Positions 1-6,723 of a stretch of DNA of 54,017 nucleotides are shown here, piece by piece. Source of the stretch: a virus. Location: positions 1 through 54,017 of the IMG/VR virus record IMGVR_UViG_3300018048_002591; one strand, 5' to 3'. The notes under the pieces are model-generated. The model had not been told where the DNA came from. It saw nothing but the letters and a program-made list of their open reading frames with translations, and did no database searches. The translations under genes and the position numbers were made by a program. The number at the start of each line of letters is the position of its first letter. Position 1 is the stretch's first letter.

Positions 1-1089
1 AATTCCTATACCTGCTATAGCAGCAGCTTGTATTAAAACATCTTTAAAACCTACATTCTTAGGAAATGCAGCAGCAAATATTCCGTATCCTATACCAAAG
101 ACACCCACAGCCGCACCCATGATAATCAAGTTAAGAGAGCCTCTCCTTACCTTTTTACTCATTACTTTGGTACCTAGTAAAGCAACAGCCCCACCTATAA
201 GTACTAATGATAAAACCATTCCTAGCAAAATTGCAGGCTGTTTAAGGATAAAGTATGTAGTAAGAGCAAATGCAGCCATTCCAATACCAAAGGAAAGAAT
301 AGCATCACCCATTCTATCAACAGATCTAGCACCCTTTCTAATGTTCTGTGAAAACTTTTTATTACCAAGAAGAGAAAAGACACCGCCCATAATAAACAGA
401 GTAGGTATAAGAATAGGTAAGCCTACAAGACCTATTAAGATAAGAGGTGTTGCTAAAGCCAAACCTCCAGCAAACTTTATAATAGCATCTCCCATAGAAT
501 CCAATGCATCAATCCCTTTCTGTACTTTCTTTGTATTGAAGGATTCAAATCTTTCAAATGAGTTAACTACAAAATCCAGGAATTTATTAACAGCTCTTTT
601 AGGAACAATACTCCACACTAACATCGCCTTACCTGTAAGTAAAGCGCCGTATCCTAAATCCTTTAATGCTGAAGCGGCTTTGCCATCAATCTTTCCACTA
701 CTCTTCTTATTAGTAGTCTTATCGCTACCTGTGCTTTTATTATTAGCGTTTTTTGCAAGTATTTCTAAGTTTTTAGAATCTCTATTACCTAAAATTCTAT
801 CTCTTATTGCTTGTCTTATACTATCACCTGCAAATGATCTAGCACCTTCTTCATGCATTATTGCCACACCAAGATGTTGGCCTATTAGTGATCTAATATT
901 TTGTAATACTGATAACTGTTGTTGTGAGACCGAAAGTATAGCAGCAGATGTGGCATCAGCACTACCCGTTGAACCCATACCCTTAACGATAAAATCTTCA
1001 ATTCTTTTAACGCTTTCGCTGGTTTCTTTTGAATAAGCCTCTATCTTAGATAGAGGGCTCATCAAGTCTTTTAAGGTTACTGCTGCCAT
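1..1089 (-). CDS. Putative tail tape-measure-like protein, partial (C-terminus off the window)
   Basis: The frame is open from an ATG at 1089 to the left edge without a stop, giving 363 visible codons of a longer protein. The N-terminal ~190 residues are polar and helical. After that come long hydrophobic, glycine-rich segments in a loose tandem repeat of about 61-64 residues; the units begin MGDAI, MGDAI and MGAAV, and the junctions read IRKG and VRRG. Such hydrophobic repeats are common in phage tail tape-measure proteins. The position fits: the gene starts 10 bp after the end of the +1-frame extension of a gp26-like gene, the place where a tape-measure gene follows tail assembly chaperones. 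T4 gp29 is the analogous protein, but I cannot claim sequence homology. A membrane or other tail-associated protein is the alternative. An antisense open frame at 119-1036 is its shadow. Confidence 0.55.
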   Translation of the reverse strand, partial: MAAVTLKDLMSPLSKIEAYSKETSESVKRIEDFIVKGMGSTGSADATSAAILSVSQQQLSVLQNIRSLIGQHLGVAIMHEEGARSFAGDSIRQAIRDRILGNRDSKNLEILAKNANNKSTGSDKTTNKKSSGKIDGKAASALKDLGYGALLTGKAMLVWSIVPKRAVNKFLDFVVNSFERFESFNTKKVQKGIDALDSMGDAIIKFAGGLALATPLILIGLVGLPILIPTLFIMGGVFSLLGNKKFSQNIRKGARSVDRMGDAILSFGIGMAAFALTTYFILKQPAILLGMVLSLVLIGGAVALLGTKVMSKKVRRGSLNLIIMGAAVGVFGIGYGIFAAAFPKNVGFKDVLIQAAAIAGIGI

Positions 1090-1099
1090 ACTATATTTA

Positions 1100-1348
1100 T
1101 TAGAACTTAGGCATGCTTATTTTCGGCATTGATGGAGTTTTATATGATGACATATTTTTCATCTGTTTTTTCATACCTCCCATATCATATTTATCCCCAT
1201 ACGACGTCTGTTGCTTGCGCTCATCATCGTTACGCTCTTTCATTATGTCATTAAACATTTCAAGAGTGTACTCATATTCATAGAAAGGAAGCAAATCCAG
1301 CTCAGATGGCTGGAGATGCAACTTTTCCAATAATAAGACTCTAACCTT
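1100..1348 (-). CDS. +1-frame extension of the gp26-like gene (gp51-position; candidate frameshift product)
   Basis: This 82-codon stretch lies directly after, and one base forward of, the stop of the gp26-like gene. It carries a protein-like motif at residues 13-30 (PSELDLLPFYEYEYTLEMF region), then a charged and Met/Lys-rich tail. The only in-frame ATG is at 1258, downstream of that motif, so an independent ATG start would lose it. TTG codons at 1330 and 1321 are alternative starts. The frame is open upstream to 1522 across the overlap, as expected for a frameshift pair. Tail assembly chaperones in many phages are made as a short form and a frameshifted long form just ahead of the tape-measure gene, which is the arrangement here. 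T4 has gp51, a hub assembly factor, in the comparable position. Whether it is made by frameshift or by its own start is not decided by sequence. Confidence 0.55.
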   Translation of the reverse strand, partial: KVRVLLLEKLHLQPSELDLLPFYEYEYTLEMFNDIMKERNDDERKQQTSYGDKYDMGGMKKQMKNMSSYKTPSMPKISMPKF

Positions 1349-1355
1349 AAAGAAG
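1346..1355 (-). promoter_or_regulatory. Candidate +1 frameshift site CTT-CTT-TAA-G
   Basis: The gp26-like frame ends GAA CTT CTT TAA G. If the peptidyl-tRNA on the last CTT slips one base forward onto TTT, the next codon is AAG and the 82-codon extension is read. This matches the logic of the bacterial prfB (RF2) site, CTT TGA C, where a slow stop codon in the A site promotes +1 slippage. The prfB site also has an upstream Shine-Dalgarno-like stimulator; I see none here, though that element may matter less in a host that makes little use of Shine-Dalgarno pairing. Confidence 0.45.
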
Positions 1356-2351
1356 TTCAGAAGTGATATCTTGAATAATAAAGAGAGCCTTGACACCGCC
1401 GGGAAAGGAAAGCGGAACTGTGACCTCCGCACCACAAGATTCACATGGATAGATAAACTCAGGTTTAACTCCAATTTTCGCTTTTTCCACAAGTCTGTAA
1501 ATGATTGAAAATTTATTAGCATCCCAGCCTTGGAAATTTGTTATTGCAGAAAAGATTTCTTTATCATTGAAACCTCTCCACTCTCTTTGTATATAAGGTA
1601 GTATGGTAAGTGATGACCTATCCCAAGATTTACCTTCTTCTTCACGTTTTCTAATCCATGTTGTAATTGCTCGCATAACACCAATTGTAGGCGGTGCTAA
1701 TGTAAGCTCTCCATGTTTTTTTGTTGGAATAGTAAAACACTTATTCTGATAATCGTAATACTTTTCTAGTAACTCGTCCCCTTCTTGGAATTGAAGATTA
1801 GTAGTTTTAAGCTCTACGGAATCCTGAGATTTACATGCTCCAGTTGGGCATGCCTTTTTACCTACTGGCATCATAAGTTTATTTTCACCGCTCTTAAATG
1901 TTAATTCGCGGATTGCCAAAATTAAAAAGATTCTATCTTCTTCTAAAACATCTCTATATGAACCTCTTTGTGTACCATACATTATCTTAGTACAGTTAAC
2001 AAGAATAGAATTTAACTTTTCATCTACATCTAAAATGTTATCTTCATCCAATGTAGAAAATTCTCTAATTTCACCAACTCTTGCGGCTCTAATATGAATT
2101 TCAAAATCTTCTCTATAGAATTTACCTTTTGATGGGAAGTTACCTAAATCTAATTTTACATAACCTGCTAAAGCTTGAATTCTCTGTATTTCAGGATCGT
2201 CTGGTGATGTAATTCCACTACCCCTGGTGGTATCAACCTTACCCAGTTCAGTAATTACACCATCCTCATTAGTCTTAACAGTGGCTTCAGTATCTTGTAT
2301 ACCTTCAGCTGCTTCAAACTCTTTTTTAATGTTGTCTTCGTGACTACTCAT
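1347..2351 (-). CDS. 26: gp26-like baseplate/tail assembly protein
   Basis: 334 residues. The central region (about residues 70-260) has the features of the T4 gp26-type baseplate family: a hydrophobic patch with LPSKGKFY-like spacing near residue 73, a segment rich in LTFKSGE, and a late WIRKREEEG helix. It is longer than T4 gp26 (208 residues). Two cysteine pairs, CPTGAC near residue 168 and CESC near residue 303, could form a zinc ribbon. In T4 gp26 belongs to the baseplate hub assembly group. Here it sits ahead of a tape-measure-like gene and overlaps an ORF in the +1 frame, so a tail-chaperone role (G/GT-like) is a reasonable inference. The start is the ATG at 2351, 7 bp after the upstream nuclease gene. 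Family assignment is by recognition, not by a search. Confidence 0.65.
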   Translation of the reverse strand: MSSHEDNIKKEFEAAEGIQDTEATVKTNEDGVITELGKVDTTRGSGITSPDDPEIQRIQALAGYVKLDLGNFPSKGKFYREDFEIHIRAARVGEIREFSTLDEDNILDVDEKLNSILVNCTKIMYGTQRGSYRDVLEEDRIFLILAIRELTFKSGENKLMMPVGKKACPTGACKSQDSVELKTTNLQFQEGDELLEKYYDYQNKCFTIPTKKHGELTLAPPTIGVMRAITTWIRKREEEGKSWDRSSLTILPYIQREWRGFNDKEIFSAITNFQGWDANKFSIIYRLVEKAKIGVKPEFIYPCESCGAEVTVPLSFPGGVKALFIIQDITSELL

Positions 2352-2358
2352 AATTTAT

Positions 2359-2826
2359 TTAATTTTTTGTTAATTGTTTTTCTGGTGATGTCTCCTCTAC
2401 TATATGCTCAACAATAAGTTGTCTAACATACCTAGAAACTGGCATCGGTTTTGTTTTTGTTTCCATTGATTTTTGAATGATGATAGTATTAAGGTTATCT
2501 TCATCTTCAGGAGTTAAAAGAACTTGTAATTTTTTTGTAAGTCTTTTCTTTTGTGGAATCATTTCCTGTACGCTTTCGTTGTAACCATATTTAGGATTGT
2601 CAGCTTTGTATTTTTTAATCCAAAACTCTACCCTATCCATAATATGACCTAATGACTCGTCTGTTTCAAATTCTTCAAGAATGGTTTTAGTAAAAGACTT
2701 TGTACCAAAATCCTTCACCGCCCTCTTAATGTATTTTCCAGACCCTAAGTTATTAGGATTGTCATTAACTGAATAACCTACATAAACTTTCCCATCTGTT
2801 TGATTTTCTACTTTAAATATCTTCAT
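2359..2826 (-). CDS. GIY-YIG endonuclease with C-terminal ribbon-helix-helix-like domain
   Basis: 155 residues. The N-terminal ~85 residues match the GIY-YIG fold: a VYVGYS version of the YIG strand at residues 14-19, then a GSGKYIKRAVKDFG segment (residues 28-41), and a catalytic-type glutamate in DRVEFWIKKY (around residue 67). The C-terminal part has a VSRYVRQLIVEHI stretch (about residues 129-141) resembling a ribbon-helix-helix DNA-binding motif. Free-standing GIY-YIG nucleases of T4-like phages (the Seg family) act as homing endonucleases. This one sits between gp26-like and tail-tube genes as an isolated insert: a terminator separates it from gp19, and it has its own late-type box at 2850-2859. 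Homing or marker exclusion is inferred; repair or restriction roles cannot be excluded. Confidence 0.75.
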   Translation of the reverse strand: MKIFKVENQTDGKVYVGYSVNDNPNNLGSGKYIKRAVKDFGTKSFTKTILEEFETDESLGHIMDRVEFWIKKYKADNPKYGYNESVQEMIPQKKRLTKKLQVLLTPEDEDNLNTIIIQKSMETKTKPMPVSRYVRQLIVEHIVEETSPEKQLTKN

Positions 2827-3513: not shown

Positions 3514-6500
3514 TTATTGGAAGTTACCTGAGCTTATTGCACCTGTCTTAAGAATTGTAGTTCTTTGGACGAGTATTTCCATTCCTCTTACCGGCTCAAT
3601 ATAAGTATCTAAGATACCAACATTTTGATCAATAACTTCTGGTGTATTATTGGTTTCATCCATAATATTTCTGAAGTCATAAACACCGTCATCATTCTGA
3701 ACAGTTGATAAGAAGTTATCAGCAAGTGTTTTAATTTCCAATCTTGTTTGAGCTGTATTAAATTCAAACAAGTAGTTTTTAAGAATTGCATCAATACCAT
3801 CTTGGATGTAAATTACAACCTCTCTAACGTTAATTGAACTTAATGCAGATTTTGTAGTCTGCTGTGCAGTTTTGTTAGCAAAGATTGTTGGACCAGTTCC
3901 ACTTTGGAATACAATCGGATTCAATCCAAATGGCTCCAAGTATTCTCTGTCCTCTTTTCCAAGATTTAATTCTAAGCCGACAACACCAGTTCCACCAACA
4001 ACACCTCTACGAACACCTGCAACTAATGACCATGGTAAAGCATTTTCATATTTTGCAATAAAGTTATTAGAAATATATGCAGCGGGTGGTACATTGATAT
4101 TCTTCCCAAGATCTCTTACGGTAATGTAAGGATAATAGAATGCTCCCCAACTCGCACCTTGTGTTTGAGATGGTAATGAATATCTTACAGTTGGATTTTT
4201 ACTAAGATCTCCACCAGTAGAAATAAATCTAGATGAAAGAGTTCCAGTAGCATCCAAGAATGTAGGATCAGTATTAGCCTTAAAGTCCTTAGCAGAAGGT
4301 GCATTCAGAATAGCAAATGCATTCTTTCTAGTAGAACAGAGGTTTGTATAGATTGCTTTAGATCCACTTTCAATACCGTTTCCAAAAGTATCAACGACAT
4401 AACGGAAGTTAATAACATCTCTATCAGTTAATGCTTTAAATAGATTAGTTCCGTTAAGAGTACCATTTAATATAGCATTTTGTCTTTGGTTTGATCCATC
4501 AGGAACATGTTTAGTGTTATCTAATTTAAATCCATCTAAAGTGAATACATTTAAGTAATCAACCCATGCATCAATTGGATAGTACAATTCTACCTTTTTA
4601 ACTCCACCTGCAGTAGAAGTTGAAATTTCACTTTGGCAAGTTACTAATAATGCAGTTTTTCCTGCAGGAATTGTGCTGTATTCAGAATTAGTTAATCCTC
4701 CTTGTACAACATTAATTCTTGTTAACCTTGAGTGAGGAACATTAACAGAACCTTCAAAGTGTACTAAGTAATTTCCTACAACTACATCAGCAGCATCAGG
4801 ATTAGCAGCATCAATTAATATTTGATTAGGTCTAAGAGCAGTTTCGGTTAACGAATCAGCCAAGATATCAATTGAAAGGTTATTTGCACCTTTCAGCGTT
4901 TGAATTCCAAAAACATTTGCACCGTATGCAACAGCATCAGAATTTAAGAAAACACCTGCACCATCTAAAGTAAATTCAGCATGAGGCGTTAAGTTATTAA
5001 ATGCATCTTCCTGGTAAGCAAGAACCTGAACAGAAGGTAAGCTATATGCCGGGTCAGATATTGCAACAGTATCAACAGCAGTTGTTGGAGTTCCTACGTG
5101 AATAAACCCATAATCAATAGCATTAAATACTAAGTATGAAGTATATTGAGTTCCACCATCTAAGTATACTGCTTCATCACCATCAGTAAGTGTACCGTTA
5201 GCAAATTGGCTATATAACATAGATCCATAAGAACCGATGATACCTGCAGTTGGATTAGCTAGTGGAAGTTCATCAGCAACGAATCCAAAGTCACTTTCAT
5301 TAATATAGGTATATGTTGCACCAGAAGTAGGGAAGTCAGTATCAGTAACTCCACCAACAGATGATAACAATAATGTAACTGTATTTCCAACAACTTGGTG
5401 AGATATAACAGGAACATATTTTGAAATAACAGAATCAAAGATATAGGTACCTACAACAGTTGAGCTGTTTGCAGTCATATTAGCAAATGAATCAAAAAAT
5501 GAATCACCTGCAGTTCCTTGTACTTGGATTTGAATATCTCCACTAGTAACAGTTGTTGCAGAAATTAGAGTCCCAGTAGATTGTGTAATAACATTAGGTA
5601 CAGTTGCAGCCCTGTTATAACTTAAATCAGAAACAATAGCTCCACTGTATGATAAGAAATTAACATCATCCTGGATTGAAGTAGCTTGAGTATATTCAAG
5701 GTTATGTCCAATCAGATCAATACCACCAGCAACACCGTCAATTAAAAAGTCTCCACTAAAGAGGTCCTCATTAACAGTTATAAATAATCCGGTAGATGCA
5801 GTGTTTGCATTAACAACTTTTTCTACGAAAAGGTTATTTCCAAGTAAATCCACAAAATCAGGAATTAATGATGCAGTATAGGTTGCAATAACATTAACTT
5901 CACTTTCATTAAAGAATTCAGCAATCTTAGTATCAGTTGCATCAGAATCAAATAATCTTCTTTTCAATCCTTGTGTTTTATCAAAGTAAGTTTGGAAGAT
6001 TGGATCAGAATCAAATCTTTCATAAGGTGTTGCAGAACTAAAGTCTCCACCGAAGTTTCCTGCAATTACAAAGATATCAACTAAGAAGTCTGATACCAAA
6101 CTATCTTTATCTAAGAATCCTGGAACATTTGCAGCTCCGTACCATTCTTCAACAGTTACATTAAAACCTGCAGAGTTTGCAGCAGATGCTTTTCTTACAA
6201 TAACAGAAATTGGATTCTGTCCTAAGTTTACCATATCTAAAAGATCATTGGTAGTAGTAGAACTTAATACCTGTCTGTTTGCTCCAACGTTATCTAAGAA
6301 TGCGTCAGAATCTGGATAGAAGAATTTATCTCTGTTATAGAATTTTTGATATTCTCCCATTGCACCTGAATTGTTTTGTACTTCCGGTGTAGATGAAGTA
6401 CCAAACTTAATGTACTCAACTTTATCGTTTGAGTCTAAATTAAGAAGATTAAGAGCCAAGATAGGTCCTCTTTCCAATGCTGCTAAACAGCTTCTGTGGA

Positions 6501-6723
6501 AATAAGAATCTTTTCTCTCTAAGTTTCTATCAATGTCGCCGTATACTTGCTTAAAGAACGCAGTATCTGGTACAAAAACTGGGGTGTTAAACGGTCCAGT
6601 TTTAGAGAAACCGACAATTAACCTTGTCTGATTAGCAGGAATACTAACAACTTGAGACTTATCAAACTCAAATCTGTAAGTACCTGCAGCTTTAATCGAA
6701 GCGATTTTCGGATCTAGTGCCAT
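3514..6723 (-). CDS. 18: Tail sheath protein (gp18-like), unusually long
   Basis: 1069 residues against 659 for T4 gp18. It is the contractile sheath subunit. The N-terminus (GTYRFEFDKSQV, VGFSKTGPFNTPVFV) and the C-terminal ~300 residues (RDLGKNINVPPAAYISN; REVVIYIQDGIDAILKNYLF; YIEPVRGMEILVQRT at the end) are the conserved sheath regions that build the contractile core. Between about residues 290 and 690 is an extra block rich in Thr, Ser, Val, Ala and Gly, best read as added surface domains. It forms the 18-19 pair with the tube gene 38 bp downstream. The start is ATG 6723, with a GATATATAAA box 27 bp upstream. An antisense frame at 3872-4129 and a minus frame at 3609-3800 are shadows. Confidence 0.9.
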   Translation of the reverse strand: MALDPKIASIKAAGTYRFEFDKSQVVSIPANQTRLIVGFSKTGPFNTPVFVPDTAFFKQVYGDIDRNLERKDSYFHRSCLAALERGPILALNLLNLDSNDKVEYIKFGTSSTPEVQNNSGAMGEYQKFYNRDKFFYPDSDAFLDNVGANRQVLSSTTTNDLLDMVNLGQNPISVIVRKASAANSAGFNVTVEEWYGAANVPGFLDKDSLVSDFLVDIFVIAGNFGGDFSSATPYERFDSDPIFQTYFDKTQGLKRRLFDSDATDTKIAEFFNESEVNVIATYTASLIPDFVDLLGNNLFVEKVVNANTASTGLFITVNEDLFSGDFLIDGVAGGIDLIGHNLEYTQATSIQDDVNFLSYSGAIVSDLSYNRAATVPNVITQSTGTLISATTVTSGDIQIQVQGTAGDSFFDSFANMTANSSTVVGTYIFDSVISKYVPVISHQVVGNTVTLLLSSVGGVTDTDFPTSGATYTYINESDFGFVADELPLANPTAGIIGSYGSMLYSQFANGTLTDGDEAVYLDGGTQYTSYLVFNAIDYGFIHVGTPTTAVDTVAISDPAYSLPSVQVLAYQEDAFNNLTPHAEFTLDGAGVFLNSDAVAYGANVFGIQTLKGANNLSIDILADSLTETALRPNQILIDAANPDAADVVVGNYLVHFEGSVNVPHSRLTRINVVQGGLTNSEYSTIPAGKTALLVTCQSEISTSTAGGVKKVELYYPIDAWVDYLNVFTLDGFKLDNTKHVPDGSNQRQNAILNGTLNGTNLFKALTDRDVINFRYVVDTFGNGIESGSKAIYTNLCSTRKNAFAILNAPSAKDFKANTDPTFLDATGTLSSRFISTGGDLSKNPTVRYSLPSQTQGASWGAFYYPYITVRDLGKNINVPPAAYISNNFIAKYENALPWSLVAGVRRGVVGGTGVVGLELNLGKEDREYLEPFGLNPIVFQSGTGPTIFANKTAQQTTKSALSSINVREVVIYIQDGIDAILKNYLFEFNTAQTRLEIKTLADNFLSTVQNDDGVYDFRNIMDETNNTPEVIDQNVGILDTYIEPVRGMEILVQRTTILKTGAISSGNFQ

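Follow-up and report, generated by a model that had tools for sequence, protein, structure and literature searches.

The frameshift that links the G and T products of phage tails is widely conserved, with T4 as an exception (PMC5009743). Among +1 shifts, UUU_Ynn is especially prone to slippage in bacteria (PMC5009743), TTT-CGC has been proposed as the site in the tail chaperone pair of HF1-group haloviruses (PMC7230728), and a UUU_C slip at UCC_UUU_CGU is the favoured model for influenza PA-X (PMC3498833). The +1 frameshift of prfB is present in most Bacteroidia, whose ribosomes normally hide the anti-Shine-Dalgarno (anti-SD) sequence, while those of Chryseobacterium, the host of the MA9V phages, carry an altered anti-SD (PMC8710568). 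Here, we analysed a viral DNA stretch of 54,017 nucleotides (nt), IMG/VR record IMGVR_UViG_3300018048_002591 (hereafter the window), in which a T4-gp26-like gene precedes a tape-measure-like gene. From its sequence and that of its relatives, this gp26-type putative chaperone is very probably made in two forms through a +1 slip at UUU_CCC. A search of the open-licence literature found neither a description of UUU_CCC nor one of a frameshift in the T4-gp26-type family. On comparative evidence, the locus appears to represent a new variety of tail-chaperone frameshift, in a protein of the T4-gp26 type.

Reading frames and selection upstream of the zero-frame stop

The gp26-like open reading frame (ORF) encodes 334 amino acids (aa) and ends GAA CTT CTT TAA GGT. 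Read from the TAA, the +1 frame is KVRVLLLEKLHLQPSELDLLPFYEYEYTLEM...PKF, which runs for 82 codons to a stop at 1102-1100 and corresponds to a long form of 416 aa. An earlier note on this DNA had described the CTT CTT TAA end and the 82 open codons, both of which were confirmed from the sequence. It had also placed a conserved-looking segment of the extension upstream of its only in-frame ATG. The segment PSELDLLPFYEYEYTLE does precede the first +1-frame ATG 3' of the zero-frame stop, but that ATG is not the only one: several more follow it in frame, and an extra one, not conserved, lies upstream at 1522, 58 codons inside gp26. Because the extension frame is also open 5' of the stop, the window sequence by itself leaves the point of frame change unfixed.

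The gene was therefore compared across about 180 related loci. These comprised 80 IMG/VR loci of the window clade (35 distinct haplotypes, 34 representatives), 82 loci of a second, LR745206-like clade that includes two phage records (46 representatives), and 13 divergent phage records, namely uncultured jumbo phages, Chryseobacterium phages MA9V-1 and MA9V-2, Lak, PAU, MaF61, pT24 and PTm1. The relatives are very large phages whose hosts are mostly Bacteroidetes; IMG/VR queries with MA9V-2 and Lak-C1 gave no result. The extension was found in the +1 frame in all 80 IMG/VR loci and all 35 distinct haplotypes, and the same order and frame recurred in the 13 divergent records at 20-48% identity, so that the +1 direction proposed in the earlier note held throughout. 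Over codons 1-9 after the stop, the ratio of nonsynonymous to synonymous polymorphism (pN/pS) was 0.094 for all distinct strings and 0.034 for strings without any ATG. In one other frame the same stretch gave 0.37, with stops in 11 of 17 strings, and in the third frame there was no synonymous change at all, with stops in 6 of 17. On these ratios, the idea that the extension is similar by chance was rejected.

Selection on the +1 frame was found to begin before the stop. In the 34 window-clade representatives, gp26 codons -10 to -2 (counted back from the stop) showed a synonymous variation of 0.057 against a mean of 0.39, the lowest of 326 such codon windows in the gene. Substitution events at gp26 codon positions 1/2/3 numbered 13/3/3 in codons -10 to -6 versus 66/42/181 in codons -45 to -11 (p about 2e-5), and codon periodicity was reversed to the +1 frame over codons -10 to -1. 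Furthermore, TTA and TTG interchanged freely at +1 codon -10 while the zero-frame residue changed between I and V. Taken together, the low silent variation, the +1 periodicity and the TTA/TTG exchange indicate that +1-frame translation is under way no later than 30 nt before the TAA. The second clade extended this limit: position-3 events fell from 9.6 to 0.9 per codon from TTT_CCC to the stop, and the codons just 5' of TTT varied silently (0.46-0.56), whereas those from TTT to the stop hardly varied. Strong +1-frame selection thus starts at codon -10 in the window clade and at the shift site in the second clade. A shift at codon -11/-10, where the window-clade periodicity flips, was dropped because the second-clade constraint starts at TTT_CCC. 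Conserved RNA structure as a cause of the silent-site conservation found no support (minimum free energy z-score of 0.41, only 8 weak consensus pairs), and transcriptional slippage was rejected since the window site has no homopolymer longer than TTT.

These patterns bear directly on the earlier note's proposal of an RF2-type shift at the zero-frame stop, in which the peptidyl-tRNA would slip from the last CTT to TTT during slow termination at TAA and give an ELL-KVR junction. The resemblance of CTT CTT TAA to the prfB site CTT TGA, the UAA in the aminoacyl (A) site and the conservation of window-clade residues from the stop onward agree with such a shift, yet the alignment kept the overlap and not the CTT-TAA site. 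Within the clade, CTT, TTA or CTA precedes the stop, and other lineages have ATT, TTT, GAA, AAG or TCT there; the stop of PTm1 is TGA, and no Shine-Dalgarno-like (SD-like) sequence lies beside CTT_TAA. Moreover, a stop-driven shift would leave unexplained both the +1-frame selection 30-57 nt upstream and the conserved +1 residues before the stop. We therefore regard it as very improbable.

Another explanation is that the extension is a separate gene, translated by coupling from its own start inside or just after gp26. An ATG is usual at +1 codon -9 or -10 in the second clade and occurs at -5 in PTm1, -2/-3 in MaF61 and +4/+5 in PAU, and in loci L186 and L187 the extension forms an ORF of its own that starts at an ATG 3' of the gp26 stop. 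However, the ATGs seen in the other groups do not coincide in homologous position, selection reaches upstream of them to TTT_CCC, and the interchange at window-clade codon -10 implies that TTA/TTG behaves as Leu there and not as a start. Among the homologues no start of the extension was conserved, as the frameshift proposal had predicted. In L182, LR756500 and LR756501, a +1 stop lies just upstream of the extension and neither ATG, GTG nor TTG occurs from that stop through the first 20 extension codons, so that a shift is required in these lineages. Non-ATG or upstream starts were likewise rejected, given that NTG codons do not recur at conserved positions and are absent from several lineages. 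An independently started extension is accordingly most unlikely. In contrast, a +1 frameshift yielding the long form of about 416 aa is well supported, and with it the short and long products of 334 and 416 aa that the earlier note had envisaged.

The UUU_CCC site and the upstream GGAGGTC

TTT_C(CC) is the only slippery site in the overlap that is kept throughout both clades, 57 nt before the stop in the window clade and 63 nt in the second clade. TTT was present in all 34 window-clade and all 46 second-clade representatives and was never TTC in these 80. The codon following it was CCC in 29 of 34 window-clade representatives (CCT in 4, CAA in 1) and in 46 of 46 of the second clade, although CCC makes up only 6 of 372 and 4 of 456 of the other Pro codons in these genes (window and second clade, respectively). 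Only one sense codon in the window is rarer than CCC, which accounts for 18 of 16,660, and in-frame TTT_CCC occurs once in 48 ORFs, at this position. The extent of the open +1 frame sets a bound of its own. In the window clade, where TTT stands at -19, the +1-open overlap never falls below 20 codons; in the second clade, where it stands at -21, the minimum is 22 codons. TTT is therefore one codon inside the limit in both.

Sequences within a clade are not independent, and the counts of 34 and 46 overstate the independent evidence. This evidence rests on at least five deep lineages with TTT CCC (the window clade, the LR745206 clade, LR756501, PAU and pT24), together with three further lineages sharing TTT_C only (TTT CAA in LR756500 and Lak, TTT CGA in MaF61). 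The +1 residues after the site are PTESNIFSLIQ in PAU, PTESKLLSLIR in pT24, PTEPQVFSLFM in LR745206, PSDSKIFSCFQ in LR756504, KAESKRYSTS in Lak and PEASKVFSLFQ in L182. These +1 residues match across the families, whereas two codons beyond the shift codon the zero frame encodes D, Y, N, I or G.

A second conserved element, GGAGGTC, lies 15 nt 5' of TTT, with a spacing of 17 nt from GGAGG to TTT. Its GAG codon was kept in 34 of 34 and 46 of 46 representatives and its GTC codon in 32 of 34 and 39 of 46, though GAA and GTT/GTA are the preferred codons, and GGAGG occurs in these genes almost only within the last 90 nt. The element recurs at the same spacing in PAU and LR756501; MA9V, PTm1 and MaF61 are without it.

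On the basis of the +1 overlap, the +1 selection upstream of the stop, the invariance of TTT_C(CC) and the several lineages without an alternative start, the following sequence of events could be envisaged. Most ribosomes, we infer, would read through to the TAA and produce the 334-residue form. On some ribosomes, the Phe-tRNA paired with UUU (residue 316) would slip one base forward while the rare Pro codon CCC occupies the A site and awaits its tRNA. The Phe-tRNA would re-pair from UUU to UUC, for which it is cognate, and the ribosome would then read CCG GCG GTG... to give 416 residues. The last 18 residues would thereby be swapped for a helical extension of 100 residues, and the conserved upstream GGAGGTC probably assists through ribosome pausing or tension. 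By analogy with lambda gpG/gpGT, both forms might bind the tape-measure protein encoded by the next gene, with the extension recruiting a tail component. A shift at UUU_CCC predicts the tryptic peptide IGVKPEFIYPCESCGAEVTVPLSFPAVSR with the junction ...VPLSFPAVSR, the short form predicts ...VPLSFPGGVK and ALFIIQDITSELL, and a shift at the stop would instead yield ALFIIQDITSELLK.

Several observations weigh against this reading. Three lineages are without the exact motif (LR756504 has UAC_CCC, PTm1 ACC_CAA and MA9V no match at the position, with a possible TTT_CAA or TTT_CTA nearby), and the spacing of 17 nt from GGAGG to TTT is far longer than in prfB. In addition, window-clade +1-frame codons -17 to -11 are not well conserved, so that the site in this clade is supported by nucleotide conservation, by the bound that +1-frame stops set and by homology. 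Finally, slippage of Pro-tRNA on CCC_N (to CCG, CCA or CCU) would share the entry point and give the same protein, and the present comparison does not separate it from UUU_C slippage. This sub-case draws on the near invariance of CCC, which LR756504 keeps with UAC before it, and on CCC being a known +1 slip codon (PMC6316719, PMC5009743). We consider it rather unlikely, because the TTT_CCT, TTT_CAA and TTT_CGA lineages retain TTT and not CCC, and TTT is never replaced by TTC in the 80 representatives.

Some loci depart from the common arrangement. At the homologous position, L084, L085 (MA9V) and L092 (PTm1) have neither TTT_CCC nor GAGGTC; a nearby TTT_CTA in MA9V or TTT_CAA in PTm1 may be a relocated site. 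The separate ATG ORF of L186/L187 (2925-3240) has 26 extra N-terminal residues; the site there reads TTT CCA and GGAGGTC is lost, as would be expected of a signal that is retained only in loci that depend on the shift. We read this standalone extension as a derived exception, and its use as a sign of a separate gene everywhere was set aside in view of TTT_CCA and the missing SD-like element. The Lak-B extension (L087, L337 and L338) has an in-frame TAG where Lak-A and Lak-C sequences have GAA, which fits a phage that decodes TAG as an amino acid. The PAU, PTm1, pT24, MaF61 and MA9V-1/2 records show the extension as a small ORF of its own (gp94, PTm1_ORF-023, pT24 gp131, ORF156, MA9V2_060 and MA9V1_007), and the annotated start codons are unsupported by the comparison.

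Gene neighbourhood and protein identity

Features of the locus and their coordinates in the window are listed below. On the minus strand, the order is tail-sheath, tail-tube-like, GIY-YIG-like and gp26-like genes, followed by the large tape-measure-like gene.

Features of the gp26-like locus in the window, with the evidence for each
Feature	Position	Strand	Evidence
gp26-like gene, short form, 334-aa zero-frame product	1347..2351	-	PHROG 150, phrog_36717, AlphaFold matches
SD-like GGAGGTC, 15 nt 5' of the shift codon	1422..1428	-	Conserved against codon preference
Putative +1 frameshift site UUU_CCC, codons -19/-18, context TCC TTT CCC G	1401..1406	-	TTT in 80/80 representatives
+1-frame extension, 100 codons + stop, first codon CCG, giving the predicted 416-aa long form	1100..1402	-	Conserved from first codon
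Dual-coded overlap of gp26 end (zero frame) and extension start (+1)	1347..1402	-	Low synonymous variation, reversed periodicity
Zero-frame stop TAA, short form (earlier proposed slip site CTT_TAA)	1347..1349	-	Preceding codon not conserved
Tape-measure-like gene, start only (cut by the window end)	1..1089	-	ORF position, gene lengths in relatives

In window-clade relatives, the tape-measure-like ORF encodes 1033-1259 aa and begins 10-16 nt after the extension stop. The MA9V gene in its position matches a tape-measure PHROG (E 1e-6). The size of this ORF and the MA9V match support the earlier note's placement of a tail-chaperone-like pair directly before a tape-measure-like gene; an overlapping pair immediately 5' of such a gene is what characterises tail chaperone pairs.

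The gp26-like product matched PHROG 150 'baseplate hub' at E 7e-4, a weak sequence match, and phrog_36717 at E 5e-25. Its AlphaFold model matched predicted T4-type baseplate hub subunit and hub-assembly proteins in BFVD (E down to 1e-9). There was no direct Pfam hit, no match in the PDB by sequence or by fold, and no sequence match between this protein and gpG-type families. It has a zinc-ribbon-like end, and the comparison of the NCTB protein with the long form gave only a short zinc-ribbon-like match. In the models, for which gp26 and the extension were treated separately, the last gp26 strand ends at residue 313 and confidence drops to 39-63 beyond about residue 320. The end of the fold at 313 followed by a low-confidence tail makes residue 316 a natural domain edge and a sensible switch point. 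The extension model is helical with low confidence (predicted template modelling score, pTM, of 0.42). By these matches, the gene probably encodes a T4-gp26-type tail/baseplate assembly protein that may act as a chaperone.

Two neighbouring genes have features of their own. The GIY-YIG-like ORF (2359-2826, minus strand) separates the tube-like gene from the gp26-like one. All eight relatives examined carry it at this location, so that it looks like a fixed gene and not a recent homing insertion. The tail sheath gene (3514-6723, minus strand) encodes an unusually long protein of 1069 aa, in which a phage tail sheath C-terminal domain was recognised only towards the end.

Comparison with known frameshift systems

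Our results would place a tail-chaperone frameshift in the T4-gp26 family, the case singled out as exceptional in the main frameshifting review, and suggest that this family is functionally equivalent to lambda gpG/gpGT. They also point to a precise +1 site common to PAU and pT24 (UUU_CCC), with variant A-site codons in Lak and MaF61; in the records of these four phages the extension is listed as a separate small ORF or unannotated. The range of the UUU_C type of +1 signal would thereby come to include phages of bacteria, and the SD-like element is relevant to how the ribosomes of Bacteroidetes, rare users of SD sequences, can still respond to them. A broader possibility, which we put forward tentatively, is that GGAGGUC 15 nt upstream and UUU_CCC form a bipartite signal acting at sense codons on anti-SD-hiding Bacteroidetes ribosomes, and that this signal is ancestral for T4-gp26-type chaperones in jumbo phages. 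If so, T4-like tails would conform to the lambda G/GT rule and no longer count as an exception to it. The locus further illustrates that a plausible stop-codon slip site can be wrong and that comparative codon analysis reveals the error.

Among the described systems, prfB (RF2) shares the +1 direction and an upstream SD-like element; however, that element lies about 3 nt before the slip codon in prfB and 17 nt before it here. The +1 shifts at CCC_UAA and CCC_UGA of SPP1 gp17.1* and the Listeria PSA tail protein also affect phage tail genes and use the rare CCC (PMC6316719, PMC5009743), but they occur at a stop in the major tail protein, whereas the shift here would occur at an internal sense codon of a chaperone-like gene. 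Influenza A PA-X has the UUU_C slip with a rare A-site codon, and the window likewise has UCC_UUU_C, although the ribosome is eukaryotic, the A-site codon is CGU and the genes are unrelated. The HF1-group haloviruses are similar in their contractile tails, in the chaperone pair before the tape measure, in the +1 frame and in the proposed UUU_C slip (PMC7230728). They differ in the archaeal host, the A-site codon CGC and a site close to the stop, in contrast to CCC (or CCU, CAA, CGA) in the A site, 57-63 nt before the stop, and an SD-like element at the present locus. With lambda gpG/gpGT, the pair shares overlapping ORFs 5' of the tape-measure gene, short and frameshift-extended products and a deeply conserved frame order, and by position and dual products it appears to correspond to gpG/gpGT, which would imply binding of the tape-measure and tube proteins. 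The differences from lambda are that the shift here is +1 and not -1, and that the first protein is of the T4-gp26 type.
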